From contig CAIMCT010000397.1 of NCBI GenBank assembly GCA_903839535.1, positions 1-41,172 on the forward strand: a stretch of 41,172 nt of DNA, written 5' to 3'. The DNA comes from an uncultured Desulfobacteraceae bacterium. Its GTDB lineage: Bacteria > Desulfobacterota > Desulfobacteria > Desulfobacterales > Desulfatirhabdiaceae. Positions within the stretch are counted from its first letter, which is position 1, and every line of letters starts with the position of its first letter. Of the stretch, positions 1-15,257 are shown one piece after another. The notes under the pieces are model-generated. The model saw only the letters and a program-made list of their open reading frames with translations, searched no databases and was not told where the DNA came from. A program made the translations under genes and the position numbers.

Positions 1-778
1 TATCAATTAGCCTGCGAAGGAAAAAATGCATTTTTTTGCATTGAAAGCATTGATAATCGGTGAATTCCGTAATTTCAATAACCGGCGCGATTGCCCCAAT
101 CCATGGGTGTCCATCTTCTGTGACACCGGTGGATATGGATTCTGAAGGCGGGGGAGGAGCCAAATTCCAATAGGCAGGAAATTTGGTAATCATGGCAAGA
201 AAAACCGCCCCAAATACCAGCGTCAACAACATGATCCAGGGTCTTTTTTTATGCCACAGGAATCGAACATCCAGAAACAAATCTGCTATAAGTCTGTTAT
301 TGCCGAATCGCCTTCGAATCAGCCACGCGTAGAACAGCAGCAGAAAATTAATGGCGTAACTAACTATACACATCATGCAATAGCTGTGAATATACAAGGC
401 TGAAATCAGCCCCAGTGCAAGGCTGTAAAGGCTGAACCCCAGAAATATCCAGAACAGAAAAGACCAAATACGCTCTTTTCCAGCTTCTTTGGATCCGGCA
501 AAAGGCAGGAGAACAAGAACGCATAAATATCCAAAGACCCCCCAAACCGGAACCGGCGCTCCCCAGAGGATTGAATATGGGCTCTGAGAGACCGTATCAC
601 AGTTGATGGCCTTTGAAATGGCGCAAAAGCTGGCATATCCGATATCGGTATAAACCCGATAATGGGATATCGACAGGTAAATCGCATCTGCAAGGCCCAT
701 TATGGCCAGAACAACGAATGTCCATAAATAAACCGGAAATGGAAGCGGAATAACTGGTTTGGGTGAATTGCCTTTCAT
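1..778 (-). CDS. VKOR family protein fused to a DsbA-like thioredoxin domain (partial, C-terminus outside window)
   Basis: The reading frame is open from an ATG at 778 to the window edge (259 codons) and has an in-frame stop just upstream of that ATG. The N-terminal half is a multi-pass membrane protein with VKOR hallmarks: a loop cysteine pair (Cys52 and Cys60) in the first extracytoplasmic loop and a CMMC redox motif at residues 134-137 in a membrane helix. After another hydrophobic stretch and a proline-rich linker, a thioredoxin-like segment begins (ITEFTDYQCFQCKK, CxxC at 244-247) and is cut by the edge. Bacterial VKORs reoxidise DsbA-like proteins with quinone, so this would be a single-chain oxidative folding enzyme of the cell envelope. 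The family call is firm. The missing C-terminus prevents any check of the rest of the thioredoxin fold. Confidence 0.88.
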   Translation of the reverse strand, partial: MKGNSPKPVIPLPFPVYLWTFVVLAIMGLADAIYLSISHYRVYTDIGYASFCAISKAINCDTVSQSPYSILWGAPVPVWGVFGYLCVLVLLPFAGSKEAGKERIWSFLFWIFLGFSLYSLALGLISALYIHSYCMMCIVSYAINFLLLFYAWLIRRRFGNNRLIADLFLDVRFLWHKKRPWIMLLTLVFGAVFLAMITKFPAYWNLAPPPPSESISTGVTEDGHPWIGAIAPVIEITEFTDYQCFQCKKMHFFLRRLID

Positions 779-913
779 TATGAAAAAAATCCGATATTGT
801 TTGTATGATCAGCCTGTTTGACTGCAAGGTTATAAAATGGATACTATCATAAGCACTTGCTCAGGGAACCAATCCGGCTAAGTGATTTTATTACCCCCTC
901 CTTGTAAATTCAA

Positions 914-1996
914 TCACAGAACCCTTAAGCCCACACATTGAGCATCCATATCCATTCTCGCCAGAGCCATTCCCACCAGTTTGGCATTTATAACGCCGGC
1001 AGCCCGCAGCGCCTTTACCAATTGCTGCGCTTGCTCAGTTGGAACTGATAAAAGCAGACCTCCTGATGTCTGCGGGTCGAAGAGAAGCTCTCTTTGTGCG
1101 GATGAAAGATTGGCCTTTACCTCCAGATGCACTTCGACGAGTTTTCGATTGGCCTGGTTGCTCCCCGTGGTTTCTCCTTTGCGATACATGTCTTCGGCAT
1201 TGGCATAAAATGGCAGGTCTGCATAAACGAGATCAATTTGCACGCTGCTGCCGTGAGCCATCTCCAGCGAGTGGCCCAAAATGCCAAAGCCGGTAATGTC
1301 CGTGCAGCCATGAACGTCATAAGCCAGCGCCACTTGAAGGGCAGTGTGATTGAGGGCGGCGACTTCGGGCAGGATAGATTCCAACTCCGACCATGGCAGC
1401 TTCCTGGCCCGGTGAGCATTGAAAAGGACTCCCGTCCCCAGAGGCTTGGTAAGAATAAGGGCATCACCTGGGCGAACCGCTGTGTTGGTCAGGATGCGGT
1501 CTGGTGATACAATTCCGGTTACAGCCAAACCGTATTTGGGTTCCTCGTCTTCCACAGAGTGACCGCCGGCCAGAGATGCGCCAGCCTCCGTGATTTTTTC
1601 ATAACCACCGCGAAGAATTTCCTTGAGCATATCGGACCCAAGTTTCTCCATGGGATACATGACCAGATTCAGAGCCGTGATGGGGCGACCTCCCATGGCA
1701 TAAACATCCGACAGTGAATTGGCGGCCGCGATGCGTCCAAACCAGATGGGATCATCCACAGGCGGTGTAATGAAATCGACTGTTGAAATGACTGCAAGTT
1801 CAGAGCTGAGGCGATAAACCGCAGCGTCGTCGCTGGACTCAAACCCTACCAGAAGATTGGGATCAGTGGGCGATGGGAACCCATGAAGTGCGTCCGACAG
1901 AGCCGTCGGACCGATTTTTGCCGCTCAGCCACAGGTCCGTGCCAGCCCGGTAAGTGTTTTCTTTCGAGGTGGTAACTCGATGCCAAAGAGATTCAT
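914..1996 (-). CDS. selD: Selenide, water dikinase (selenophosphate synthetase), selenocysteine-containing
   Basis: SelD makes selenophosphate from selenide and ATP for selenocysteine and selenouridine synthesis. The frame starts at an ATG at 1996 with a purine-rich ribosome site (AAAGGAAAG) and runs 360 codons. It contains one in-frame TGA at 1925-1927 (codon 24) in the context ARTCG-U-AAKIGP, the catalytic position that is Cys or Sec in SelD. Downstream are the family blocks: GFESSDDAAVY, the STVDFITPPVDDP segment, SLSDVYAMGG, GGHSVEDEEPKYG and TDITGFGILGH. A plain ORF call would begin at 1759 and lose 79 residues, including the active site. A bacterial SECIS-like hairpin follows the UGA. 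The gene therefore encodes both a selenoprotein and the enzyme that supplies its selenium donor. It lies between the binding lipoprotein and the VKOR gene on the same strand. Confidence 0.95.
1892..1911 (-). promoter_or_regulatory. Bacterial SECIS-like hairpin for the selD UGA codon
   Basis: In the mRNA sense, GUCCGAC, a six-base loop GGCUCU and GUCGGAC form a perfect 7-bp stem. It begins 13 nt after the UGA at 1925-1927. Bacterial SECIS elements recruit SelB from just this position and usually carry exposed G and U residues in a small loop, as here. The hairpin is directly visible; its function is inferred from position and form. Confidence 0.8.
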
Positions 1997-2082
1997 CTTT
2001 CTTTCCTTTCTGGATGCGGCTTGTATCTCCGTTTACAAGTCCCTGGACTCAAAATACTTCGCGGATGAGTTGCTTTTCATTG

Positions 2083-3282
2083 TCAGGGAGGACAAAGCGG
2101 TATGGGTTGATCTTCTGTAAGGAAATGGAACTTACCATTGCAATACTGTTTCAAATACATTGGTGCATGTTTCTGTACGTCTCCTCCAATACCAAAGATA
2201 ATGGCGCCCGTTGCTCCGTACCACTTTTCCGGCAGCAGCAGCTCTGAGGCGACTTCCCAGACATTGACGGTTTTGGCGCTTTCGATGCTTGTGGCCAGCA
2301 TTGAAAGTGCGACGTATGCCCTGGCAGCCCAGATATCAGGCTGATTATTCGGATATTTTGCCTTAAATTGTTTGACAAAGTCTTTCACAGCCGGATCTGA
2401 TGCGTCCGGATTGAAATAAGTGGCCATCACCACGCCATTTGCGGCTGTCCCGGCTGCCTGCAATTGTGCAATGTCATCCAGCTCAACGGAACTAATAATC
2501 GGCACGCGGATGTTCATGGACCTGATCTGATTAATGATGGACACACTATCCGAAACATTGCATGCAATATAAATCGCATCCAGCAAATTTTGATTTTTAT
2601 TGGCGCTTTCTCTCAGACTCCAGAGCAGCTGGCGAATATCCTTTTCCCATGAAAAATAGGATATGGAGTGGGAGATGTGAATGTCGGACTCCGCGGCGGA
2701 TTCGGTAAATGCCTTGGCTTGCGAAACAAACATCCCACTACGTTCATTAATTACGGCCATATTGCGCCAGCGCCGTTCCAGGTTTGCGACAATTTTTTTG
2801 GATGCGATGCGGTCGTTGGAAATGATTCGAAATGACAGGGGAGATGCTTGAGAAACAGATGTGGAAGTATTGGCCACCAGTATGTGTAGTATGTTTGATG
2901 TCATCAGGATTCTGTCTGTGGCGGATGTATATCGCGAAGTCAGACCATTAATGACAGCAATGGTATTGTGATGTTTGGCAATCTTCTGAACGATGCCCAT
3001 TTCGTTATTCGGAAATTTGGGCTCCAAATATACCTGCACCTGCATGGGCTGATTCTGAAAAGTCGGTCTCTCGTTGATTTCCTCAAGGGCCAGTTGCATT
3101 CCGCGCTGAAGGGAATCGTGATTTGTGACGGATGTGAGAAGGCCGATAACAATGGGGCCGCTACCCAGCTCTTTGTTTTCCAGGCTTATTTCGGGAGGCT
3201 TCAAGGCGCCACCGTCATCGCACCCAGACAGCCCCGCCATTCCAATAATTACAACTGCGAACAACCGGATAAAAATGCGCAT
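2083..3282 (-). CDS. Periplasmic-binding-protein type 1 lipoprotein (LivJ/LivK-like ABC substrate-binding protein)
   Basis: The 399-residue product starts with a lipoprotein signal peptide: MRIFIRLF, a hydrophobic core, and lipobox LSGC with the lipidated Cys at 21. The mature part has the two-lobed branched-chain-amino-acid receptor pattern: PIVIGLLTS at the start, a segment on GMQLALEEIN, AVINGLTSRYT near the hinge, and a C-terminal DPAVKDFVKQFKAKYPNNQPD block typical of LivK-type proteins. No permease or ATPase genes for this family lie beside it, so it may be an orphan receptor or feed a remote transporter. An AGGAGG site overlaps the stop codon of the upstream SPFH gene, 14 nt before the ATG, which suggests translational coupling. 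The ligand cannot be told from the sequence. Confidence 0.85.
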   Translation of the reverse strand: MRIFIRLFAVVIIGMAGLSGCDDGGALKPPEISLENKELGSGPIVIGLLTSVTNHDSLQRGMQLALEEINERPTFQNQPMQVQVYLEPKFPNNEMGIVQKIAKHHNTIAVINGLTSRYTSATDRILMTSNILHILVANTSTSVSQASPLSFRIISNDRIASKKIVANLERRWRNMAVINERSGMFVSQAKAFTESAAESDIHISHSISYFSWEKDIRQLLWSLRESANKNQNLLDAIYIACNVSDSVSIINQIRSMNIRVPIISSVELDDIAQLQAAGTAANGVVMATYFNPDASDPAVKDFVKQFKAKYPNNQPDIWAARAYVALSMLATSIESAKTVNVWEVASELLLPEKWYGATGAIIFGIGGDVQKHAPMYLKQYCNGKFHFLTEDQPIPLCPP

Positions 3283-3300
3283 GATCTATAATAAAGCCTC

Positions 3301-4221
3301 CTATTTATCCGCTCCCAGAATAACGGGCAAACCGTTTTCACCGTTTCCGATGACCACTACCTTGGCATTGGGGGATAGGGCGATGTTCTCGGTGGCGATG
3401 ATTCCCTTCCATTTAAGCATCTCTGGCGTAAGGGACGCGTTGATCAGATCGTTATAGTTTTTGATCCCCGTGGCTTCAATGCTCTTTCTCTCTGCTTCCT
3501 GCTTCTCCCGTTGCAGCTTGAATTCATAAGCCAGGGCCAGGTGTTTTTCCTGCACTTTATTCTCGATGGCTTGTTTGACGCTTTCCGGTAAAGTGATTTT
3601 TTTAATGAGTACATCATCAATCTGTACATAGCGCTGGGAAACTTTTTCGATGGCCTGGTTTACGGTGGATTCCAGGATGAATGTGGGCGCTGTATAAAGC
3701 TCTTCAGCGCTCATTTTGCCGAGATTAGTCCGGATTACGGATTCGACTTCCGGAATAACGATGGCATTGATGTAGTCAGGGCCTACATGCTGATGCAGCA
3801 TGCCCAGCAGCCCGTAATCCGGATAGCAGATAATGGAAGACTGAATTATGACTTTGAGCCCATCTTTGGTCAGAACTTCATTTTCATGGTGAACCTGCTG
3901 AACCCGGAGATTATAACGATACATAATATCCCATGGCCAGATCAGATGAACCCCCTCTCCATAGACCCTGGTTATTACGGTACCGCCGAAAAAACGACGA
4001 TACAACACCGCAGCTTCTCCCGGCATTACGTTAACCACGATGCTGTTAAACAGATAAGCCAGCAGAAACAGGATTACGAACGCTGCTATCAGCAGATAGG
4101 GTAGATTCCGCCGGGTCCATTTCAGGGCGGCTTCATTGATGCGCTTCGCTCCAATTATCGTCCATTGCTTAGTTGCTTCAAACGCTCTTGTGACGGCTAT
4201 TCGTTTCATTCGTGGTTCCAT
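3301..4221 (-). CDS. SPFH/prohibitin (band 7) family membrane protein
   Basis: The protein has 306 residues. A short basic cytoplasmic leader is followed by one transmembrane segment (about residues 41-62, LPYLLIAAFVILFLLAYLF), then an SPFH/band-7 domain with the typical opening NVMPGEAAVLYRRFFGGT and GEGVHLIWPW. The C-terminal part is charged and helical (EKHLALAYEFKLQREKQEAERK), as in prohibitins and HflC/HflK. Members form ring oligomers in membranes and modulate proteases or microdomains. The ATG at 4221 has no clear ribosome site; Met5 at 4209 is an alternative start. It lies downstream of the peptide exporter on the same strand, separated by a 104-bp palindromic element, so membership in the NRPS transcription unit is uncertain. 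Confidence 0.87.
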   Translation of the reverse strand: MEPRMKRIAVTRAFEATKQWTIIGAKRINEAALKWTRRNLPYLLIAAFVILFLLAYLFNSIVVNVMPGEAAVLYRRFFGGTVITRVYGEGVHLIWPWDIMYRYNLRVQQVHHENEVLTKDGLKVIIQSSIICYPDYGLLGMLHQHVGPDYINAIVIPEVESVIRTNLGKMSAEELYTAPTFILESTVNQAIEKVSQRYVQIDDVLIKKITLPESVKQAIENKVQEKHLALAYEFKLQREKQEAERKSIEATGIKNYNDLINASLTPEMLKWKGIIATENIALSPNAKVVVIGNGENGLPVILGADK

Positions 4222-4246
4222 TTATTTTTATATCCGTGAGATGTTT

Positions 4247-4350
4247 ATACTGCAAACGGGCATAATCTGCACTTTCCTTATGCTCCCTCTCTCAGCGGGG
4301 GAGGGTTGGGGTGGGGGTCCAAAAGTGCAGATTGTGACAGTTGGCAGTAT
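4247..4350. repeat. 104-bp MITE-like inverted-repeat element with G-rich core
   Basis: The ends are inverted copies: ATACTGC at 4247 and GCAGTAT at 4350, with an inner perfect pair AATCTGCACTTT and AAAGTGCAGATT. Over 29 bp the two termini match at 25 positions. The centre holds a CCCTCTCTCAGCGGGGGAGG palindrome and a G-rich tail, related to the core of the element inserted in the NRPS reductase domain (6941-7056). It fills the gap between the exporter and SPFH genes. It could be a non-autonomous mobile element, a transcript hairpin, or both. Confidence 0.75.
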
Positions 4351-4369
4351 ATTTTAACAGCAGGATTCT

Positions 4370-6016
4370 TCACCCGTTAACGATCTGACCATCTTCCATT
4401 TTAAGAATCCGATCCGCTGCGTGGAAAAAGCGGTCATCGTGAGTAACGGCAATCACTGTTTTTCCGCGCTGCTTCAGATCCTGGAGCAATACCTCATAGA
4501 AATACTTTCGAAACTTCGGATCTTGGTCAGCAGCCACTTCATCAAACATTAAAATGGGCTTGTCCTCCAAATGGGAGGCAATCAAAGCCAATCGTTTGCG
4601 CTGGCCGGTGGACAGTTTGGTGTTAGTAAATTTGTCATCGACAAAAGATGTTTTATCAGACAGCTCCATGATATCCAGCAGCTCAAATACTTTTTGAGCT
4701 TCAATTTTCCCAAGGCCGTAGAGCCGGTCGAATAAATGGAAGTCCGTAAAAATTATGGAAAACAGATTGCGGTAGCGGGCATAATGGGCCGGCTCCAACA
4801 CCTTATTATTCAGTAGCATTCTTCCGTTGTGGGGATAATACAGGCCAGCCAGAATTTTTAAAAGCGTTGATTTGCCGCTCCCGTTTCCCCCTACAATGAA
4901 CAGCACTTCGCCGGCCTTTATGCTCAGGTCGATGGGACCCAGGGTAAAAACTTTATGTCGGTCTGGATCCATATAAGAAAAGGCAATATTTTCCATAAAA
5001 ATGGCATCAAAACCTGTCTGCGGCCTGCTGAAATCAACCGAGCCTGTGATGTGACCTTCATCTGCGGCATCCAGGGATTTTTCCAGGGTTTCGATATTGG
5101 TAATGGCCACATCCGCCCTGGCGACCAGGGGCAGTGCTTCCACGATGTTGCCCAAAGGTCCTACCATGAACAATACCACAGCCGTAATGTTGGTGATGAT
5201 TCCGTAACCCAGATCCGTGATTTGCGGGAGCAAAAAAATGATGGTTGCCAGAAGAATATAAAAAAAAGCCTGTGCAAAAATATAATTGTCAATAAAGCGA
5301 TATTCTGTGCGGATATTAATGTCACGGGCCTCCGTGGAAATCTGCTGAATATGGCCTTCATAAAGATCCCGGCTTTTGGCCGTATTCATTTTGATCTCTT
5401 TGAATCCATCCAGCAGGTGATTAACCCCATCAAAAAATTCATTTTCTTTTTTCAGGCACTCTGTCAGATCTTCACCTGTGGCTTTTTGATTAATGAGATA
5501 GATGGAAACTCCGCCGCTTATGATAATAACTGCCAGAAAAAAAGCGGTAATGGACAAATGCCCGATATATAAAAAAGAAAAAATCAGCATCACCGCCGAT
5601 GATCCAGCATTGGCAATCAGGCGGGATGCATCAAAAATGGTTTCAGTATTTTCCGCCAGAACCGTATAAATCTGGGATTTACCAATATCTTCAAAGGCCA
5701 TAAGCCCAGTATTCCGGATTTTATCCAAAAACCGCAGCCGGATGCTAAAGACAATATGTTGAATCAGGCTGGCTGTCATTGTCAGAGAATATCGTTTAGC
5801 CAGTATAAAGCCGCTGATACAGACGATAAACATCAGCAGGTAACGAAAATTAAGGCTTTTTTCAGGGAATTTTTCAGCAGCGCCATTGATGATAACCATG
5901 ACCATGCCCTGGAGCAACCCGGCCATAGAGGCAAAGGCGCTGATTTTAAGCGACATTTTGCCAGCTTCCTTGCGAATAAATCTAAAATATTTTAATTTCA
6001 TTTGACCGTTTACCAT
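4370..6016 (-). CDS. ABC exporter of the cyclic-peptide/siderophore type (PvdE/SyrD family)
   Basis: This 548-residue half-transporter has an N-terminal domain with about six membrane segments (residues 25-295) and a C-terminal ATPase. Visible motifs are Walker A GGNGSGKST (376-384), a signature loop LSTGQRKRLAL, Walker B ILMFDE followed by VAADQDP, and a switch histidine in VTHDD. The LSTGQ signature and DQDP D-loop are typical of the PvdE/SyrD group, which exports nonribosomal peptides or their precursors. It lies about 200 bp downstream of the NRPS on the same strand, so it is the likely exporter or periplasmic delivery pump for the NRPS product. The start is ambiguous: ATG at 6016 or 6001, neither with a strong ribosome site. 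Confidence 0.9.
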   Translation of the reverse strand: MVNGQMKLKYFRFIRKEAGKMSLKISAFASMAGLLQGMVMVIINGAAEKFPEKSLNFRYLLMFIVCISGFILAKRYSLTMTASLIQHIVFSIRLRFLDKIRNTGLMAFEDIGKSQIYTVLAENTETIFDASRLIANAGSSAVMLIFSFLYIGHLSITAFFLAVIIISGGVSIYLINQKATGEDLTECLKKENEFFDGVNHLLDGFKEIKMNTAKSRDLYEGHIQQISTEARDINIRTEYRFIDNYIFAQAFFYILLATIIFLLPQITDLGYGIITNITAVVLFMVGPLGNIVEALPLVARADVAITNIETLEKSLDAADEGHITGSVDFSRPQTGFDAIFMENIAFSYMDPDRHKVFTLGPIDLSIKAGEVLFIVGGNGSGKSTLLKILAGLYYPHNGRMLLNNKVLEPAHYARYRNLFSIIFTDFHLFDRLYGLGKIEAQKVFELLDIMELSDKTSFVDDKFTNTKLSTGQRKRLALIASHLEDKPILMFDEVAADQDPKFRKYFYEVLLQDLKQRGKTVIAVTHDDRFFHAADRILKMEDGQIVNG

Positions 6017-6080
6017 GACAATTATGAATTATATGTATCATTCTTAAATTTCATCAACAATCACAACTAAAATCGAAAGG

Positions 6081-6173
6081 ATTCCCCCCTTTGAAAAAGG
6101 GGGGCCAGAGGGGATTTAGGAGGTTATCCACCCGAAAAATCCCCCTCGATCCCCCTTTTCCAAAGGGGGAAGT
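6081..6173. repeat. Inverted-repeat element with CCCCCTTT/AAAGGGGG arms
   Basis: A left arm (6081-6117, ATTCCCCCCTTTGAAAAAGG onward) and a right arm (6137-6172) are near-perfect inverted copies around a 19-bp spacer. A solo right-arm copy occurs at 14562-14600. Together with a shared 32-bp tail (6182-6213), it occupies the region just after the NRPS stop codon. It could act as a transcript hairpin between the NRPS and the exporter; the primary signal is a dispersed repeat. Confidence 0.8.
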
Positions 6174-6223: not shown

Positions 6224-9200
6224 TTACTCCGTTATATATTTCAGGTAAGTCCGGAATAAAGCGGCATCCGCCGGTGGGCAGACAACACCTGTTCCTGCCA
6301 GATATTTTAATGTATTGCTGCAGCCAAAACGCTGTACAGACAAAGAAGCCGGCAATTCCTTGATGAGCGGTAAAAATGGATACAATGGGTTGTGCGGCTG
6401 CATTTCCAGCTTCGCCACCATCCGCTCACGCCACTGGCTGTCCGGAACAATATCCAGCTTGTATCCGGCCTGCTGCAAACAGCTCAGTATCAACGGAGCA
6501 GGCATGGGATGCGGATTGATGAGATGAAAAATCTTGCCGATGGCATCGGGTTTCAGGGACAACACGACCAGCGCTTTCGCCGCAAAATCAACAGGAGTCA
6601 TGTCTTCATCTGCGTAGCGATCTGAAACCATGTTCAGTTCTATATACCCGCGCAATGACCTTACAAACAGACTTTGCGGGTCGCTAAGGCCACTCTGGCT
6701 ATGGCCGGTGATGCGTCCAGGACGAAAGATTGTAACAGCAAGTCCTTTGTCCCTGGCAGCCAGAACCAGTTTCTCAGCCGCCCACTTGCTCTGGTCATAA
6801 CCGGTTTCAAGGCCTGTCCAGTGGGCAGGCGGGTCCTGTTCGTCAATCCGTGCATCAAATACAGTGTCGTTAGATGCGAAAGATTTTTCGCCACTAACTC
6901 GCCCTTCGTCCTTATCTCGTCCCTCGTTACTCAATCCTTGCAAGCGTTCAGACCCCTCCCCCCAGCGGGGGGAGGTTGGGAGGGGGGAAATGCCGTCATG
7001 CCAACCAATTGCCCTCCCCCCGGCCCCCTCCCGCTGGGAGGGGGAGTGAACGGTTGTCAATCCTTGCCCCTGTTTTGGAAAAACAGAAAGCGTGGATACA
7101 AAATGCAAGCGTTTGGCCGGGCCGATTGTCGCCAGGTTTAAAATCGTTTGTGTTCCAAGTACATTTTCCGCACGAAGCCGTTGGTAGGGTTGTAAAAAAT
7201 CAACGAGCGCGCCGTTATGATAGATCATGTCCAAACGCTGGCCCAGTTCGGAAAACGCCCGAGGATCAAGCCCAAACCAGGGCTTTGCCAAATCCCCCGG
7301 AATGGGCGCTATACGCTTTTCGTATTCGGGATGCCAAAGATCAACGGTCTTTAGTTTGGAGATGAGACGAGCCATACCGTCTTCAGGCCGACTGCAACGC
7401 ACCAGACAATACAGCTTGGCGTTAGTCTGCTCCAGAAGCTCGGCCAGTAAAAATGCGCCCAGAAAACCCGATGCGCCGGTGAGGAAAATCGCACGGGAAT
7501 CTGGCCAGGATTGCGGCCATGGGGGCGGTGTAAAAGACGCATCCAACAACTGGCTGTCAGATTCAGGACCAGGCCCATGTATCTCCTGGCAAGGGGCGAC
7601 AATCTGATTGCCTTTAACGGCACCCTGTTCCTCATTGTGCAGCATGGCCGCAAGCTGTGCAACTGTTGGGTGCAGGAAAATCATTCTGACTGGAATCTCC
7701 TGTTTTAGTTGTTCACAAAGAAGGGTTGACAGCCGGATGGCCTTGAGAGAATTGCCGCCCCAGTCAAAAAAATCTGCCTCCTTGTTCAGCTCTTTTTTAC
7801 CAAGAACCGAGCTAAATGCCTCAAGTAATATCTTTTCCAGATCATTGGATGGCGCAGCAACCTGGTATTGCTTCCGGCTTTCAGATTTTGCGGCGACTGC
7901 AAGCAGTGCTTGACGGTCAATTTTGCCGCTTGGTGTCAACTGCAGCATATCCACGGGGATGATTCTATCCGGCAGACAATACCTTGGTAATCGCTCGGCC
8001 AAGTAGTTTTGCAGGGGGGGGCTGGCATTGAGGCCTGCCCCTACTGTTTGCAGCAGCCTGCCAGTATCCATAACGAACTGAACAAAGGCGAGCAGCTCAT
8101 CGGTTTTCCCATCCGGGGACCATTTCATTACAGCCGCATCTTTGACCTGAGGGTGGCTTCGGAGCACTGATGCAATTTCATTGGGTTCAATCCTGAAGCC
8201 GCGGATCTTGATCTGGTCATCTATCCGGCCCAGGAAAACAAGCTGTCCGTCCGCCCGCCACTTTCCCATATCTCCGGATCGGTAGAGACGCTGGCTATGT
8301 AGATATGGATGAGAAATAAATTTTTCTGCAGTCAGATCTGGCCGGTTCATATATCCTCTTGCCAGCCCGATGCCGGCAATACAGATTTCTCCTGAAACAC
8401 CAATGGGAATGGCCGGTTTATCTTCTGATCCCATAGCCGATACAAGAGCGCCAGAATATCCTTTAGCCAGAAGATAAACAGGAGCGCCAGGCAGGGGCTG
8501 ACCAATGGGAATATCGCCGGCCTCCGTATTAGCCGACGCTCTTGTGGCGGCTACAAGAGCGTTTGAATCTAACCGGTAGATGGCGGCGCAGACAGAGGCT
8601 TCCGTGGGTCCATAAGCGTTAAATACTGTTCTGGCGCGGCTGTGAAAAATCAGATCCTCGGTAATGGCGGCTTCGCCGGCAGTGATCAGAACTCGCAAGG
8701 GAGACATATTCACACGGGGAAGTACATGCAGATAGGCCGGTGGCAAGGTGGCCACTGTTACCCGGTAATCCGCCATAAACCGCAAAAATGTGTATGGGTC
8801 GCGTATCACGGCATCCGGAATCATGACCACGGCTGCTCCGCAAAGAAGGGCCATAAAGATTTCAGACAAGGAAGCATCGAAACCCGGCGAAGCAAATTGT
8901 AGGACCCGGTCATGGGGAAGAATGCCAAAAACATCGATCTGAGTCTGAATCATATTCAGAAAACCATCGTGCTGAATCATGACCCCTTTGGGCTGACCAG
9001 TGGAGCCGCTGGTATAAATGACATACATGAGATCATGAGATTGGCGCAGTTTGGAAGACTGGCAGCACTGGGGTGCGGCGCTCCCGGGATGATGCCGGCC
9101 GAGGAGGATATGTTGTGTGGTCTCCGGTTCTGTCCCCAGTTGATCGGCGGACAAAATGGACTCGGGTATCCGCAATGTCTGAATATGGGGAAATGGTGGA

Positions 9201-12200
9201 AGACGGCTCTCATACGCCGACTCTATCAGGATGATCTGACAATTGCTGTCGGAAATCATGTATTGGATTCTTTGGATCGGGTAATCAGTATCTATGGGCA
9301 AATAAGCGGCCCCGGCTTTTAAAATACCCATAATGGCGATAATTAGTTGCCGGGACCTTCCCAGCATTACGCCTACACAGGTATCGGTCAACGGTAAATC
9401 ATCGTGTCCTTGAAAGCGGGTTCTGAGCATATTAGCCAGCACATTGGCTTCATGATCCAGTTCCCTGTATGTTAGAATCCCATCGGCATCTATAACCGCC
9501 GTGCTATCCGGAAATTGATCCACGGCTCTGGCGAATACATCGGTTAAATGCAGCAAAGACCATTCCTGCACGGGCCGGGACAATGCAGGGGCATTGAAAT
9601 CCACCAGTACCTGCTGCTGCTGGGCTTCGGACAACATCTCCAGTTCATGGATTTTCTTTTGGGGATGGGTGAGGCAATCGGTCAGAAGCCTTTGCCAATG
9701 ATCCGCAACTCGCTGGATCGTATCAGGTGAAAACAGATCCGAGCAATAGGAGAGATTCAAACTTAAGCCATCCAAGCTCTCAATAAATTCAAAGGTCATA
9801 TCAAAACGGCTGGTTCCGGTATCCAACGCTAAATGCTGGATGCTCATATCTTTTGTGGCCGTAGATGTTGGTACATATTGCTGGATGACAACCATCACAT
9901 CAAATACTGGCACCCGGCTTTGATCACGAACCGGCTTCAGCTCATCCACCAATTGATCAAAGGGGTAACGTTGATGCTTGTGGGCCAGAAGAACTGTTTC
10001 TTTGATCTGAGTCGCCAGATCCTCGAATCGCTTCTGGGGGTCAATTGAATCGCGAAGCGTCAGGATGTTGGCGAAAAATCCGACCTGATGCTCCAAATCC
10101 GGATGTGTTCGACCTGAAGCCGCTGTACCCAGGGTAATCTCTGTCTGACCGGTATAGCGATGGAGCAGAACTTTCACAGAGCTGACCAACAGAATGAATG
10201 GCGTGGTCTGATACCTTCCTGCAAGTGTTCTAAGATTCGTAAATACGGACGATTCCAGAGGCAGGCGCAGGGTATGGCCTTTATAAGAAGGCGTAGCCGG
10301 ACGTGGGAAATCCAGAGGAAAATCCAGCGGTTCAGGAAGGGGCAAGAGCTGCGAATGCCAAAACTTTCGGTCCTCGGCATATTGAGAGCCAGCCTCCAAG
10401 CTTTGCTGCCAGAGCGCATAATCCCGGTATTGAATGGACAGGGGAGGCAGATTGGAATGCGATATGCCGATATTTGCTGCATACGCTCTTGTAGCCGGCA
10501 CAAGAGCATCGGCTAAAACAGCCATTTCTTTGGCCAGGATGTCCATGGACCAGGCATCGCAGACAATGTGGTGTGCATGGATAAAGAGAAGGTGCTGGCT
10601 TTTTCCTGTCCGGATCAACATAACCCGAAACAGGGGGCCTGTGGACAGATCAAAAGGTGCAGTGGACAACTGGCGGATCAGGGTTATCGCCGCCTGAACC
10701 GGATTTTCACGGGAGCGCATATCCTCCATTTCCAGTACTGTCTCTGAAGATTGAATGACTTGCCGCGGCTCGCCATCCACCACACGAAACACAGTGCGCA
10801 AGGATTCGTGTCTATCAACTATAAGCTCAAATGCCTGACGTATTAGATTTGGCTCAATTTCGCCATTGAGCCAGAAAGCTCCGGGCATATTATAGGCCGG
10901 TGATTCCGGATTCATGCAATGTAAAACCCATAAACGGCGTTGTGCATGAGATAATGGATAATGGGCCTGAACTGGACCTTGCGTAATTTTATTCAGAACT
11001 TTAGCATCTTTTGATCGCAGCATTTTGGCGATTTCAAAAACTGTGGGATGGGCGAAAATATCCTGCAAACTGATTTCCACACCCATCTCCCGGTGGATGG
11101 CGGAGACCATTCGCATGGCTTTCAGGCTATGACCCCCAAGATCAAAAAAATTTTCATGAATGCCAATGGCAGGACGCTCCAGAATCTGCTGCCAGATTTC
11201 TGCGATTCTGGCCTCGTCTGGTTTGGGAAAATGTGCGGTAGAAGAAATATCTAATGGGGAGCCGCACTGGGGTGCGGCGGTCCCAGGAGAAAGGGCATCA
11301 CAAGGAATACCTGATGGTGGAGAAAAATGGACATCTGTTGTAAGAGCAATTTGCCGGGGATCGGGCAATGCTTTTTTATTGATCTTGCCGTTTGGTGTCA
11401 GAGGCAAGCGCTCCATCTGAACAAAATGAGATGGTATCATATAATCCGGAACAAGTTGACGCAAGAACTCTCGCAAAGCCGGTATGATAGAACGCTGCCC
11501 GCTTTCCGATTCCTGTAGCGCCGGCATCTTGCCGGAAACGAGGGAATGAGAGTACACCAGATAAGCCGCCAGCTCAGGGCCGGTCACTGATCCGGTCCAG
11601 GCAATCACGACCGCATCCCGTATTGGCACACCCGGAAACTGCTTGATATGGCTTTCTATGTCTCCGGTTTCAATACGGTATCCGCGAATTTTTACCTGGT
11701 CGTCGCGCCTGCCCAGACATACCAGCGTACCATCGGGTTGCCAGTACCCAAAATCACCAGTTTTATACAACCGCTTGCCCGGCTCAAACGGATGCTCAAT
11801 AAAAGCCGCCGCGGTCTGCTCCGGCAATTCGAAATAGCCTTGGGCCAGACCCTTTCCAGCGATACATATCTCACCTACTGATCCGATGGGCATCAGGTCC
11901 AGATCCCGCGATAGAACATACACCTGTTCGTTTTTTAAGGGCGATCCAATATTAACGGGGTTTAGGATCGAGGGTCGAGGAGTTGTCAGGGGCGGAACAT
12001 TTTTCGCCCCTATCTCGCCCGTCTCCTCTCGTCTCTCGCTACTCATCAACTGCTGGCTCATGGACCAGATCGTGGCCTCGGTAGGACCGTACACATTAAA
12101 TACCCTGACACTGTCAAAGATCGGCTGAATCCGCTCAAACAAGTCGAGTGGAAGCGGCTCGCCGCCAATCAAAAGAACCTGCAATTGGCGTAAAGCGGCG

Positions 12201-14449
12201 GGAATGCCTGAAGATACAGGATTCTCATTTTCCAGCAGCAACCTGAGGCGCGATGGTGTAAGCTGTAAGGCGGTAATTTCCTGTTCTTGAATGATGTCCA
12301 GAATGCGCTTAGGTTCCCGGATTTCGGCTTCCGGAGAGATCACCACTGTTAGACCAGTCATAAGGCTATTAAGAATTTCCAGTACCGAAATGTCAAAGGA
12401 AATTGTGGTCAGGGCCAGTATCCGGTCCATAGGTTTGAACCCAAACACAGCCGTCATGTTAGCGTTAAAGCTAACCACGTTCTGGTGGGTTACTACGACA
12501 CCTTTGGGCTGTCCGGTCGATCCGGAGGTGTACATCACATAAGCAGGGTCGAGGGCCGAGGGCCGAGGGGTTGTCAGGGGCGAAAAATTTTTCACCCCTA
12601 TCTCGCCCATCGTCCCTTGCTCATCGTCACTCACTGTTTCGGACAGGGCTGCGTCCAGAAAACACACGGCAGTCCCTTCAGGAATGGCGATTCGGGGCGG
12701 AACGGATGAACTTAGGTGGTTGGCCTGGGTGAGCAGCACCTTGCAGCGGCTGTTTGTTAAAATAGCGTCCACACGCTTTTGTGGAAAAGCCGGATCGATG
12801 GGAATATATGCGGCACCGGTGTATAAAATTCCCAAAATAGCAGCAACCATATTTTCGCTGCGATCCAGTAACACACCAACGCGATCTTTGGGTAGAACAC
12901 CGGCAGCCTGTAAATGAGATCCGATTCTTGCCGCCCGAAGATGCAAAATGGAATATGTCAGGGATTGGCCATTGCTTATGATTGCCGGAGCATCTGGCCT
13001 GAGGGCTGCCTGGGACTCAAATACATCCACAATGGACTGATTCTGAGGATACGGCCAATCAGTTTGATTGAACACTGTCATCAACTGGTTTTTCTCGGAT
13101 TCGGATAAGATGGATATTCTCTTGACATCAATGCCTGGATTTTCCTTGGTTTTGTATGCCAGAACAGATGTTATCATTTCGCGTAGATGATGTTGGATGG
13201 CTTCGATCTGATCAACCGAATACACCCTTGCATTAAAGCGAAATGTGAACCTGATCTGCTCCCCCGGACCAACGGCGATTTCCAGGGGATAGTGGGTCTG
13301 TTCAATGTTTTCGTAGTGTTCAAGTATCAACCGGTCGCTTTGCTCCGGTTGCACTGCTGCCTGTTCAAAGGAATACCTGGAGATATTTGGGTCAAAGGTC
13401 AGTATATGGTCAAACAATCCTTGTTTCAAATGGCTGTTGGCTTGAATATCTGCAAGAGGAAAAAAATGATGTTTCATCCCGGAAGCCATCTGATTCATAA
13501 GCTCTGTCAGAATTTCTGAAAAAAGGCGGTGGCTGGGGGCATGGACCCTTAGTGGCACAGTATTGATAAACAGCCCCACGATATGTTCGACACCTGCAAT
13601 TTCATAAGGCCGACCGGATACGACAATACCAAAAACCACATCTTCCACATCATTGGTTTTTGCCAGCAAAACGGCCCATAGAGCCTGTACCACGATATTC
13701 AGGGTTACCCTGTTTTGGCTAGCCAACTGGCGCAGAGCACAGGTCGTGTCAGCATCCAGAAACATCGAAAAGGTTTTTAGATCATAAGCCTGGGTGGAGG
13801 CTTGTTTCGGAAACGTGGCGAGTTGATCATAACCTTCCAGATAGTTTTTCCAGAATTCGCGGGAGGTGTTCCTGTCCCGTTTTTCCAACCACTCTACAAA
13901 GGTCCGAAATGCTTCCGGTTTCGGAAGGTTTGGATCATTTTGATTGATCTGTCCGCTATAAAGGGCCATTAACTCTTGCTGAAGGATGGGCAAACACCAC
14001 CCGTCCATGATGATGTGGTGAAAACTCCAGACCACACGGAATACAGCATCCCCGGTCTGCAAGACCCGCAGTCGCATCAATACATCACGGGACAGGTCAA
14101 ACGGCGTGCTGCGATCTTTTTGTAGCACGTTCTTAATGGCTTTATGCTGCATTGCTGGATTCATGCTGCGCAGATCCTGGAAAGAGAGATTCAATCGCCT
14201 GTGTTTCAGCACGAACTGAAGCGGTTTGGGTACATGACGATGAATAAAAACCGTGCGCAGAACATCGTGGCGCTGAATCAACTGGTTCCACGCAGTTTCA
14301 AACGCCCCGACATCCAATGCGCCACGAAGGCAATAGGTAATCTGCTGCAAATAGGCTAATGAATTCGGTTCATAAAGGGCGTGAAAAAACAGTCCTTCCT
14401 GCATCGGCGTCAGCGGATAAACTTCTTGAAGATTTTCTTTGCTCAGCAT
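6224..14449 (-). CDS. Dimodular nonribosomal peptide synthetase with terminal thioester reductase (C-A-PCP-C-A-PCP-R)
   Basis: The product has 2741 residues. The chosen start is ATG 14449, preceded by GAGGG at 8 nt; a TTG at 14464 is in frame. Domains in order: C1 (YPLTPMQEGLFFH, HHIIMDGW near 150), A1 (YTSGSTGQPKG near 640, NVYGPTEATIW), PCP1 (LGGHSLKAM near 1110), C2 (HAQRRLWVLH, HHIVCDAW near 1300), A2 (YTSGSTGQPKG near 1815, NAYGPTEASVC), PCP2 (WGGNSLKAI near 2235), and a reductase with TGASGFLGAF near 2330 and catalytic YDQSK near 2560. Pocket residues aligned by eye to GrsA read D-I-L-Q-L-G-V-I-W-K in A1 (glycine type) and D-A-S-T-I-A-A-V-C-K in A2 (Tyr/Phe type). A terminal R domain releases an aldehyde or alcohol with NAD(P)H. 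The leading C domain implies an acyl or peptidyl donor not seen here. Many palindromic repeats sit in frame within linkers. Domain calls are firm; substrate calls are inference. Confidence 0.96.
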   Translation of the reverse strand: MLSKENLQEVYPLTPMQEGLFFHALYEPNSLAYLQQITYCLRGALDVGAFETAWNQLIQRHDVLRTVFIHRHVPKPLQFVLKHRRLNLSFQDLRSMNPAMQHKAIKNVLQKDRSTPFDLSRDVLMRLRVLQTGDAVFRVVWSFHHIIMDGWCLPILQQELMALYSGQINQNDPNLPKPEAFRTFVEWLEKRDRNTSREFWKNYLEGYDQLATFPKQASTQAYDLKTFSMFLDADTTCALRQLASQNRVTLNIVVQALWAVLLAKTNDVEDVVFGIVVSGRPYEIAGVEHIVGLFINTVPLRVHAPSHRLFSEILTELMNQMASGMKHHFFPLADIQANSHLKQGLFDHILTFDPNISRYSFEQAAVQPEQSDRLILEHYENIEQTHYPLEIAVGPGEQIRFTFRFNARVYSVDQIEAIQHHLREMITSVLAYKTKENPGIDVKRISILSESEKNQLMTVFNQTDWPYPQNQSIVDVFESQAALRPDAPAIISNGQSLTYSILHLRAARIGSHLQAAGVLPKDRVGVLLDRSENMVAAILGILYTGAAYIPIDPAFPQKRVDAILTNSRCKVLLTQANHLSSSVPPRIAIPEGTAVCFLDAALSETVSDDEQGTMGEIGVKNFSPLTTPRPSALDPAYVMYTSGSTGQPKGVVVTHQNVVSFNANMTAVFGFKPMDRILALTTISFDISVLEILNSLMTGLTVVISPEAEIREPKRILDIIQEQEITALQLTPSRLRLLLENENPVSSGIPAALRQLQVLLIGGEPLPLDLFERIQPIFDSVRVFNVYGPTEATIWSMSQQLMSSERREETGEIGAKNVPPLTTPRPSILNPVNIGSPLKNEQVYVLSRDLDLMPIGSVGEICIAGKGLAQGYFELPEQTAAAFIEHPFEPGKRLYKTGDFGYWQPDGTLVCLGRRDDQVKIRGYRIETGDIESHIKQFPGVPIRDAVVIAWTGSVTGPELAAYLVYSHSLVSGKMPALQESESGQRSIIPALREFLRQLVPDYMIPSHFVQMERLPLTPNGKINKKALPDPRQIALTTDVHFSPPSGIPCDALSPGTAAPQCGSPLDISSTAHFPKPDEARIAEIWQQILERPAIGIHENFFDLGGHSLKAMRMVSAIHREMGVEISLQDIFAHPTVFEIAKMLRSKDAKVLNKITQGPVQAHYPLSHAQRRLWVLHCMNPESPAYNMPGAFWLNGEIEPNLIRQAFELIVDRHESLRTVFRVVDGEPRQVIQSSETVLEMEDMRSRENPVQAAITLIRQLSTAPFDLSTGPLFRVMLIRTGKSQHLLFIHAHHIVCDAWSMDILAKEMAVLADALVPATRAYAANIGISHSNLPPLSIQYRDYALWQQSLEAGSQYAEDRKFWHSQLLPLPEPLDFPLDFPRPATPSYKGHTLRLPLESSVFTNLRTLAGRYQTTPFILLVSSVKVLLHRYTGQTEITLGTAASGRTHPDLEHQVGFFANILTLRDSIDPQKRFEDLATQIKETVLLAHKHQRYPFDQLVDELKPVRDQSRVPVFDVMVVIQQYVPTSTATKDMSIQHLALDTGTSRFDMTFEFIESLDGLSLNLSYCSDLFSPDTIQRVADHWQRLLTDCLTHPQKKIHELEMLSEAQQQQVLVDFNAPALSRPVQEWSLLHLTDVFARAVDQFPDSTAVIDADGILTYRELDHEANVLANMLRTRFQGHDDLPLTDTCVGVMLGRSRQLIIAIMGILKAGAAYLPIDTDYPIQRIQYMISDSNCQIILIESAYESRLPPFPHIQTLRIPESILSADQLGTEPETTQHILLGRHHPGSAAPQCCQSSKLRQSHDLMYVIYTSGSTGQPKGVMIQHDGFLNMIQTQIDVFGILPHDRVLQFASPGFDASLSEIFMALLCGAAVVMIPDAVIRDPYTFLRFMADYRVTVATLPPAYLHVLPRVNMSPLRVLITAGEAAITEDLIFHSRARTVFNAYGPTEASVCAAIYRLDSNALVAATRASANTEAGDIPIGQPLPGAPVYLLAKGYSGALVSAMGSEDKPAIPIGVSGEICIAGIGLARGYMNRPDLTAEKFISHPYLHSQRLYRSGDMGKWRADGQLVFLGRIDDQIKIRGFRIEPNEIASVLRSHPQVKDAAVMKWSPDGKTDELLAFVQFVMDTGRLLQTVGAGLNASPPLQNYLAERLPRYCLPDRIIPVDMLQLTPSGKIDRQALLAVAAKSESRKQYQVAAPSNDLEKILLEAFSSVLGKKELNKEADFFDWGGNSLKAIRLSTLLCEQLKQEIPVRMIFLHPTVAQLAAMLHNEEQGAVKGNQIVAPCQEIHGPGPESDSQLLDASFTPPPWPQSWPDSRAIFLTGASGFLGAFLLAELLEQTNAKLYCLVRCSRPEDGMARLISKLKTVDLWHPEYEKRIAPIPGDLAKPWFGLDPRAFSELGQRLDMIYHNGALVDFLQPYQRLRAENVLGTQTILNLATIGPAKRLHFVSTLSVFPKQGQGLTTVHSPSQREGAGGRAIGWHDGISPLPTSPRWGEGSERLQGLSNEGRDKDEGRVSGEKSFASNDTVFDARIDEQDPPAHWTGLETGYDQSKWAAEKLVLAARDKGLAVTIFRPGRITGHSQSGLSDPQSLFVRSLRGYIELNMVSDRYADEDMTPVDFAAKALVVLSLKPDAIGKIFHLINPHPMPAPLILSCLQQAGYKLDIVPDSQWRERMVAKLEMQPHNPLYPFLPLIKELPASLSVQRFGCSNTLKYLAGTGVVCPPADAALFRTYLKYITE
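6874..6936. repeat. Diverged copy of the TTTTTCGCCCCTATCTCGCCC repeat inside the NRPS reductase domain
   Basis: The forward text GAAAGATTTTTCGCC, ACTCGCCCTTCGTC and CTCGTTACTCA follows the same order as the copies at 11982-12050 and 12570-12640. In protein it contributes the low-complexity EGRVSGEKSFASND region of the reductase domain, directly adjoining the 116-bp element to its right. It is more degenerate than the two adenylation-domain copies. Confidence 0.6.
6931..7066. mobile_element. 116-bp palindromic element (6941-7056) flanked by a 10-bp direct repeat, inside the NRPS reductase domain
   Basis: TCAATCCTTG occurs at 6931-6940 and again at 7057-7066. Between them is an inverted-repeat element with CGTTCA near one end (6945) and TGAACG near the other (7047-7052), and two oppositely oriented CCCTCCCCCCAGCGGGGGGA-type cores. 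Element plus one direct repeat is 126 bp, exactly 42 codons, so the reading frame survives. It encodes peptides such as SPSQREGAGG and PLPTSPRWGEG, which have no place in a reductase fold. The core matches the intergenic element at 4247-4350. This is best read as an in-frame insertion with target-site duplication. Confidence 0.78.
8011..8044. repeat. GTAGGGGC...GCCCCTAC-type palindrome in the A2 domain tail
   Basis: The arms GCAGGGGGGGGCTGGC and AGGCCTGCCCCTAC form an imperfect inverted repeat. In the protein it gives QTVGAGLNASPPL between the A8 and A10 regions of the second adenylation domain, where other NRPSs have a short loop. Related palindromes lie at 15522-15549 and 22402-22431. Confidence 0.6.
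8435..8452. repeat. Half copy of the ACGCTCTTGT palindrome in the A2 domain
   Basis: The forward text AGCCGATACAAGAGCGCC matches one arm and loop of the palindrome at 8536-8562. In protein it lies in the expanded loop YSGALVSAMGSEDKPA, just before the GEICIAG motif of A2. The single arm suggests a decayed copy. Confidence 0.45.
8536..8562. repeat. Perfect 27-bp palindrome ACGCTCTTGT-N7-ACAAGAGCGT in the A2 domain
   Basis: Two perfect 10-bp arms surround the loop GGCGGCT. The element encodes ALVAATRASA in the loop after the YGPTEASVC motif of the second adenylation domain. Copies occur at 10483-10509 (9 of 10 arm bases, loop near-inverted) and as half copies at 8435-8452 and 15566-15586. Confidence 0.8.
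9062..9087. repeat. GCCGCACTGGGGTGCGGC-type palindrome, copy 1, before the A3 motif of A2
   Basis: The forward text GCAGCACTGGGGTGCGGCG, followed by CTCCCGG, repeats at 11261-11287 with few changes. It encodes PGSAAPQC in the loop preceding YVIYTSGSTG of the second adenylation domain. The core can pair as GC(A/C)GCA with TGCGGC around a CTGGGG loop. Confidence 0.65.
10483..10509. repeat. ACGCTCTTGT palindrome, copy 2, in condensation domain C2
   Basis: The arms ACGCTCTTGT and ACAAGAGCAT (9 of 10 complementary) flank the loop AGCCGGC. The repeat encodes VPATRAYAA in a loop of C2 between the HHxxxD motif and the QYRDYALWQ motif, where typical C domains carry a shorter linker. Confidence 0.75.
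11261..11287. repeat. GCCGCACTGGGGTGCGGC palindrome, copy 2, in the A1-PCP1 linker
   Basis: The stem GCCGCA/TGCGGC with loop CTGGGG is followed by GGTCCCAGG. It encodes PGTAAPQCGSP in the linker between adenylation domain 1 and its carrier protein. It shares the AAPQC peptide with copy 1 at 9062-9087, so both are read in the same frame and orientation. Confidence 0.7.
11967..12050. repeat. In-frame repeat encoding GEIGAKNVPPLTTPRPS in A1 (between motifs A5 and A6)
   Basis: Bases 11982-12020 match 12570-12608 at 36 of 39 positions. They are preceded in both copies by GGGTCGAGG-type text and followed by a CTCGTCTCTCGCTACTC-type tail. The translated insert lies in a loop of the first adenylation domain after NVYGPTEATIW. 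The related but diverged copy is at 6874-6936. Confidence 0.82.
12546..12640. repeat. In-frame repeat encoding GEIGVKNFSPLTTPRPS in A1 (before motif A3)
   Basis: This is the partner of 11967-12050; the 39-bp core at 12570-12608 differs at 3 positions. It is a second insertion in the same adenylation domain, placed just before YVMYTSGSTG. Both copies are read in the same frame and give nearly the same peptide. That argues for a duplicated mobile unit rather than ancestral domain sequence. Confidence 0.82.
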
Positions 14450-14514
14450 TATGTCTGCCCTCAATAATTAATTCAGATGGATGGCCATGATAAAAGAGAA
14501 ACCGCGAATATGTG

Positions 14515-14648: not shown

Positions 14649-15257
14649 TTAAATGTTTAAGGGTTGCCGTTCAGACACTAACCACCCTGAAATATCCTGA
14701 ACCATCCACTGGACAACTGGATGAGCAAGGATGGCGGCGATGTGGCCGTTGAAATAATAGTGTTCGACATCAAACTCCTGTTGTTTGTAAGACAGCATAA
14801 GATGATGGTCATCCACAATCTTGATGACACGGCACAGGGAAAGCGCTTTCAGTCCGATCCCAACGGATTTCAACACAGATTCCTTGGCTGTCCAGTAACG
14901 TAAAAACAGCAGATCGCTTACCGACTCTCCCAGTTTCCATTCCGCATCATCCGCCGTCATACGATAAAGCCCTGGGGCGCAGGGTCTGATTTTCTCGACA
15001 TCCATACCAATTGGAAAATCAGCCACAACCCCGGCCACATAGTCCGTTTTATGAGCAAGAGACCAGAAATAACCTCCAACCGGAAGCGGCGCGCCTTCCG
15101 GAGATTTCATCAACTCGCCAAGTTTGACACCACTTTGATTCGCCGAAAGCTGTACAGCCTGGCGGGCAAGGCTGCTCAACTGGAGAACCTTGTCTCTGCC
15201 CCGCAATTGGCGATCAGCTTCAGGAACCGCCACAATGAATGGGTAAATAGTTTTCAT
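14649..15257 (-). CDS. Sfp-type 4'-phosphopantetheinyl transferase
   Basis: The enzyme moves phosphopantetheine from CoA to the conserved Ser of carrier proteins and so activates both PCP domains of the adjacent NRPS. The 202-residue product shows the family blocks: PVGGYFWSLAHKTDYVAGVV, GMDVEKIRP (metal-binding Asp and Glu) and FLRYWTAKESVLKSVGIGL (WxxKES). The ATG at 15257 follows GGCAGGTTGAAAT. It is the first gene of the minus-strand biosynthetic set, about 200 bp upstream of the NRPS. It is bracketed by a 39-bp direct repeat and carries the same 3' flank repeat as the NRPS. Confidence 0.93.
   Translation of the reverse strand: MKTIYPFIVAVPEADRQLRGRDKVLQLSSLARQAVQLSANQSGVKLGELMKSPEGAPLPVGGYFWSLAHKTDYVAGVVADFPIGMDVEKIRPCAPGLYRMTADDAEWKLGESVSDLLFLRYWTAKESVLKSVGIGLKALSLCRVIKIVDDHHLMLSYKQQEFDVEHYYFNGHIAAILAHPVVQWMVQDISGWLVSERQPLNI

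Follow-up and report, generated by a model that had tools for sequence, protein, structure and literature searches.

A second selenocysteine-form selenophosphate synthetase gene, most likely laterally acquired, in an uncultured Desulfobacteraceae bacterium

Selenophosphate synthetases (SelD) that themselves contain selenocysteine (Sec) are well known in bacteria, as is evident from the portions available of four papers (PMC13188914, PMC9312934, PMC1794560, PMC8318568). In the available part of PMC1273633, the Sec isoform of Photobacterium profundum adjoins a selAB operon for which lateral acquisition is assumed, and it groups with neither T. denticola nor the gammaproteobacteria. Photobacterium sp. 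FC4.9 also lists two selD genes in the excerpt seen of PMC9642325. On prokaryotes, the accessible sections of PMC4561486 mention fusions and contain no pair of two Sec-SelDs. Table 3 of PMC1794560, a source consulted in part, lists SelD for deltaproteobacteria without copy number, and the excerpt of PMC8318568 describes a marine deltaproteobacterium in which a subset of the Sec proteins is multi-copy; SelD is among its Sec proteins, and that excerpt does not say whether it belongs to the subset. In the literature that we searched, which most subscription papers fall outside, no description of a Sec-plus-Sec selD pair was found. Paired selD genes were reportedly seen in a Gram-positive anaerobe, according to an older report.

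The locus described here resembles these systems in several respects. As in the bacterial Sec-SelDs (SelD/SPS2) of PMC13188914 and PMC9312934, so far as the parts available describe them, Sec would occupy the N-terminal catalytic position, a SECIS element follows right after the UGA, and the host has SelA, SelB and tRNA-Sec. As in P. profundum (PMC1273633, excerpt), there are two selD genes in one genome, and the occurrence of duplicate selenophosphate synthetases in one genome also recalls the metazoan SPS1/SPS2 duplications (PMC4561486, in the sections available).

The DNA analysed (the window) is a stretch of 41,172 nucleotides from an uncultured Desulfobacteraceae bacterium, a member of a group in which selenium proteins abound. 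The original prediction placed a SelD gene at 914-1996, and these coordinates are correct; the strand, which it did not give, is minus. The gene, of the type that we call B1, runs from 1996 to 914, beginning at an ATG (1994..1996) behind a ribosome-binding-site-like AGGAAAG (2007-2001), both read from the sequence on the minus strand, and ending at a TGA stop (916-914, minus). When TGA is read as Sec, the frame is intact over 360 amino acids and closes at that stop; on the plus strand, translation in frame from 914 gives nonsense. The single internal TGA is codon 24 (1925..1927, minus); it lies in the motif LARTCG-U-AAKIG and corresponds in position to Cys17 of E. coli. The predicted protein scored 371.7 bits against the TIGR00476 selD profile (cut-off 125), covering profile positions 2-310 of 311, and the solved SelD structure 3u0o aligned with its residues 15-342 at 240 bits, such that Sec24 and Lys27 match Cys17 and Lys20 of 3u0o in the glycine-rich loop. 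We take Cys17 and Lys20 of E. coli SelD to be the catalytic Cys-or-Sec and the Lys of that loop. Translation, family profile and structural alignment agree in supporting the proposal that an in-frame UGA replaces the catalytic Cys in ARTCG-U-AAKIG. From these features we infer that Sec is inserted at codon 24 and that the protein has selenophosphate synthetase activity. Judged by its sequence, the gene most likely encodes a Sec-form SelD that makes selenophosphate in the ordinary way, Sec serving as its reactive residue.

Mechanical gene calling with table 11 yields a truncated, GTG-start open reading frame of 281 amino acids (914..1759, minus) that lacks the active-site loop. The loss of 79 residues, active site included, that had been foreseen for standard calling is therefore borne out by the comparison of 281 with 360 residues, and the annotation is corrected accordingly, since the mechanical frame would drop the active site. 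The existence of this shorter frame is also what could be said for reading the UGA as a true stop, produced by pseudogene formation or a sequencing error, with the gene either dead or starting at the internal GTG. We regard that reading as very improbable, because the UGA stands at the same codon in the congeners and relatives read, everything downstream of it is intact, and the synonymous sites of the stem that follows it are constrained.

The host genome (5.66 Mb in 580 contigs, 99.5% complete, 1.6% contaminated) contains selA (600 bits), selB (371 bits) and a tRNA-Sec (77 bits), to which ARAGORN assigns the anticodon TCA (UCA-type tRNA). The window contig belongs to this genome, as shown by its TypA, which shares 98% identity with the TypA of the congener G001. 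The original prediction held that the host must have SelA, SelB and tRNA-Sec and proposed looking for their absence; since all three are present in the same genome, it is not refuted. Its expectation of further selenoproteins elsewhere was also supported: two genes scoring above the FdhA family cut-off contain a single in-frame TGA each, which in both stands at CAR(L/T)-U-H and is followed by a foldable stretch. We take CARxUH to be the known Sec site of the formate dehydrogenase alpha family, and other recoded genes therefore exist in the genome. A third, partial FdhA match below the cut-off also has one in-frame TGA. SelA was found as one copy in each of 56 genomes of the same order and was not found in G038, which is 65% complete; with one SelA per genome in these 56, the idea of several SelA copies was dropped.

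A bacterial SECIS element is a stem-loop shortly after the UGA, with a G in its apical loop. The perfect 7-bp hairpin with a GGCUCU loop that had been predicted 13 nt past the UGA can be read directly at 1911-1892 on the minus strand, its arms GTCCGAC (1911-1905) and GTCGGAC (1898-1892) enclosing the loop GGCTCT (1904-1899), and it fits the SECIS rule in both the stem and the G-containing loop. When the protein was held fixed and synonymous codons were redrawn, 1075 of 20000 versions folded at least as stably, and against chance this single hairpin, taken alone, is suggestive only. The only known RNA families in the window at gathering scores were RNase P and a tRNA.

Comparison across sequences was more informative. 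Among 142 distinct Sec-SelDs, the first 36 nt after the UGA had a mean z of -1.59 with 63 sequences in the best 5%, and the following 36 nt a mean z of -0.26 with 13 of 142 in the best 5%; these are counts and not probabilities, because these are related sequences and the shuffles for every species were weighted with a single codon table, that of the window genes. The same synonymous-codon test gave z -0.51, with 1 of 16 in the best 5%, for a sample of Cys-SelDs drawn mostly from one genus, from which a motif filter had left out seven Cys-SelD rows. In the window's own subtype, the stem codons for Pro6, Leu9 and Ser10 after the UGA are CCG, CTG and TCG in 27 of 27 distinct sequences each; elsewhere in the B1 genes, CCG is used for 40% of Pro, CTG for 47% of Leu and TCG for 25% of Ser residues. 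One further B1 row (L101), which the same kind of motif filter kept out of both the 142-sequence folding set and the codon counts, has a perfect 7-bp stem with TTG instead of CTG. At the first base of the loop, 21 of the 27 rows have G, 5 have A and 1 has C; at the second, all of them have G. We also examined covariation in 26 of the 27 B1 sequences (two are identical). Paired cells amounted to 96.2%, compared with 19-43% in slid versions of the stem; four of the seven pairs are invariant, one pair is changed on both sides (G-C to A-U, in 2 of 26 rows), and between 20 and 186 of 500 column shuffles reached the observed covariation values. Covariation was dropped as proof of the stem, as variation is too scarce. 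Overall, the cross-sequence comparison, rather than any one hairpin, shows that the hairpin is more than chance and is selected beyond coding, and the synonymous sites of the stem are nearly frozen in the window's own clade.

We searched 57 genomes of the window's order for selD. The search gave 62 above-cut-off rows with a single in-frame TGA, spread over 50 genomes; in one further genome (G018) the only match was partial and did not include the UGA region, and in six genomes nothing scored above the cut-off. All 62 rows with an active-site loop carry the UGA, and this part of the finding is therefore already known. UGA-bearing selD genes number two or three in ten of the 57 genomes. The host is one of those with two, on contig C184 (type A) and on the window contig C397 (type B1), each with one TGA, and the C184 copy clusters with the A copies of its genus. 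In a 61-row tree of the order, a branch with 100/100 support separates the 16 rows of the window's type (B) from the rest. The tree puts both types in 10 genomes, B alone in 6 and A alone in 34, with G033 assigned by identity alone, as its sequence (L029), an extracted piece without the UGA region, was omitted from the trees. Three SelD genes with one in-frame TGA each were found in G346 (C16, C7, C65), G001 (C75, C53, C97) and G032 (C7, C26, C37).

The two types differ in more than their position in the tree. Every B-type row read has the UGA at the same place, within a loop motif R/KTCG-U-AAK, and the A motif is mostly GxG-U-ASK. The commonest hairpins are GTCCGAC/GTCGGAC in B1, AGCCC-GGTC-GGGCT in a second subtype, B2, and TCCAG-GGGAC-CTGGA in A, and the loops of all three begin with GG. 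Type B is the only SelD found in five SelA-positive genomes (G013, G015, G035, G036 and G047), and in two of these, G013 and G035, it is of the B1 subtype, which is therefore presumably functional.

A scan of the phylum at 1e-60 gave SelD matches in 341 of 395 genomes, and two or three matches in 21 of the 395, the codon being listed for some of these matches. Among the matches listed, all but one row had an in-frame TGA, a figure from which the share of Cys forms is not derivable, because the rows listed are the best scorers against a Sec-type query. In G327, which additionally has a TGA-type SelD, a TGA-less match (C51:23658-24650) lies inside an open frame of 746 amino acids and is probably a fusion.

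The affinities of the window copy run opposite to those of its host. We used TypA, a gene of the window contig, as the sole yardstick for organism relationship; it had no match in 8 of 37 genomes asked, five of them carriers of B1 outside the order. Sixteen genomes outside the order have SelDs that share 58-76% identity with the window SelD, and TypA identity is 46-56% in the 11 of these where TypA was found; to 11 B2 copies of the same order, the window SelD is only 48-54% identical. SelD and TypA identities are 76 and 54% for G346, 70 and 52% for G278, and 69 and 56% for G268, all outside the order, compared with 52 and 78% for G008 and 51 and 72% for G017 within it. The B copies of G013 and G035, which also belong to the order, are 67-68% identical to the window SelD; with 67% for SelD and 79% for TypA, vertical descent fits G013 less badly. 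Further relatives occur in Syntrophobacteraceae MAGs (69-73%) and on contigs labelled Deltaproteobacteria, Thermoanaerobaculia (Acidobacteriota) and Bacterium BMS3Bbin05 (64-66%).

A further tree, of 68 rows, drew L119 to L132 plus L134, L135, L156 and L159 from a set of 80 loci, and it included six of the 45 A copies of the 61-row tree. In it, the B1 copies of the window's genus group with G346 (99/95) and next with the Syntrophobacteraceae MAGs (95/90), and G013 and G035 are placed with G268 and others, apart from the own-genus copies. The B2 subtype contains same-order rows only among the 68 sampled. In approximately unbiased (AU) tests, whose groups were chosen with the trees already known, a single clade of the same-order B copies was rejected at p 6e-5 when the group included L119, a contig from a public MAG nested among the own-genus copies, and at p 1.7e-4 without it, an omission that favoured rejection; forcing the own-genus copies together with G013 and G035 was rejected at p 2e-5. 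The gene tree conflicts with the organism relationships, as judged by the AU tests and by TypA as one yardstick.

These data bear on the alternative that an ancient duplication gave rise to the two SelDs, which then descended vertically within the order with many losses, the window copy having never been transferred. Such a history would accommodate the deep, fully supported split between A and B, the co-occurrence of both in 10 of 57 genomes, and the restriction of B2 to the order among the rows sampled. We nevertheless consider it improbable, because the own-genus and G013/G035 copies associate separately with different lineages from outside the order, the AU tests reject their union, and the SelD identities run opposite to those of TypA. 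The distribution among close relatives argues against it as well: no match to a B-type SelD was found in the congeners G003-G005 (89, 98 and 67% complete), and the two congeners with the window-type gene, G001 and G006, carry it at another location. Compared with window positions 1-6100, G001 matches at 959-2032 and, beyond that, only weakly through its A-type SelDs; the SelD match of G006 (966-2009) is on one contig, with the window's flanking blocks on two others. In G002 (840 contigs), the neighbouring VKOR gene was matched and SelD was not. The assemblies are mostly fragmented, so part of this patchy distribution may reflect missing contigs. Lateral acquisition of the window copy from a lineage outside the order, hairpin included, is most likely on the evidence of these sequence comparisons, and the direction of transfer would be into the order.

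No shared B1 neighbourhood was found across families. A conserved operon around SelD-B was considered and rejected, as the widest cluster of non-SelD frames recurred in 8 of 16 loci at varying distances. In the window, the gene downstream of selD encodes a VKOR-family membrane protein (PF07884; 2-778, minus) that runs off the contig end; its cut C-terminus, TDYQCFQCKKM, resembles a thioredoxin-fold active site, and the last part of the gene recurs at 98% on contig C557. On the other side, a dispersed palindromic repeat of about 107 bp with the ends ATACTGC..GCAGTAT occupies 4245-4351. Elsewhere in this genome it has at least 36 copies of 93-99% identity and at least one of 83% (37 of 442 first-look candidates were scored); it also has diverged copies in congeners, folds as a long hairpin (z -5.2) and is MITE- or REP-like. 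Beyond it lie a non-ribosomal peptide synthetase of 2746 amino acids (6227-14464, minus), in which condensation and adenylation stretches occur twice each and an NAD-binding reductase domain at the C-terminus would release an aldehyde or alcohol, and beside it a phosphopantetheinyl transferase (14652-15257, minus).

We then asked what a second SelD might be for. Selenouridine was set aside as the reason, as SelU occurs in 3 of the 57 genomes and in none with B. The selenium-cofactor trait was likewise rejected for this organism, YqeB having been found in 0 of 7 genomes of its genus. With SelU found in none of the 16 B genomes and YqeB not found in the genus, Sec synthesis through SelA is the only recognised sink in this organism. 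A rather unlikely reading is that the second SelD is specialised, serving another selenium sink (the selenium cofactor of molybdenum hydroxylases, or another) or another selenium supply. Across the order, YqeB, the marker of that cofactor, is present in 8 of 16 genomes with B and in 5 of 41 without (p 0.004 in a Fisher test that ignores relatedness and genome size), and B has its own motif and its own hairpin. That YqeB was not found in the window's genus, nor SelU with B, argues against specialisation, as does the finding of B as the sole SelD in the five SelA genomes named above.

We favour the reading, to which we assign a probability of about 0.87, that the window gene is a second Sec-SelD which works, came in by lateral transfer and supplies a single Sec pathway, in which the two copies would be redundant. 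UGA codon 24 would be decoded as Sec by SelB and tRNA-Sec with the hairpin in the coding sequence 13 nt downstream; Sec24 and Lys27 in the glycine-rich active-site loop would take part in converting selenide and ATP to selenophosphate, which the genome's single SelA would use to form Sec-tRNA. The B1 copy would have been acquired horizontally from outside the order with its in-frame hairpin, and since that hairpin travels with the gene, the host SelB could decode the transferred selD. What is established about the pathway implies that SelD needs its own product for its own synthesis: SelA makes Sec-tRNA from the SelD product, and SelD therefore supplies a building block of itself. A division of labour, with one Sec-SelD devoted to Sec synthesis and the other tuned to another selenium sink or supply, or acting as a guard against collapse of this self-dependent loop, seems to us a rather unlikely extension. 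If it were true, the self-dependence of SelD would be a reason for gaining and keeping extra copies. That a second copy helps with this self-dependence is speculation; the presence of both types in 10 of 57 genomes of the order offers a natural test of whether a self-dependent enzyme gains from a backup copy. More generally, a Sec-decoding host has two selenoprotein SelDs, one of which seems to have passed from one lineage to another, taking along the recoding signal that lies within its coding sequence. A gene with such a signal would spread only among Sec decoders and would therefore mark exchange within that group.

Compared with the known systems, the Sec-SelD itself is familiar; what is unusual is a second SelD that also uses UGA, belongs to a separate clade and carries a different hairpin. 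Unlike the bacterial Sec-SelDs of PMC13188914 and PMC9312934, as far as the available parts of these papers go, the window SelD is one of two Sec-SelDs in its genome. In the part available of PMC1273633, P. profundum has one Sec and one Cys selD, the Cys form beside ybbB and the Sec form beside selAB, whereas here both are Sec forms, no SelU was found and the B copy is not beside sel genes. In the metazoan duplications, as presented in the accessible sections of PMC4561486, one duplicate usually replaces Sec and changes function, whereas here both copies keep the UGA and the motif.
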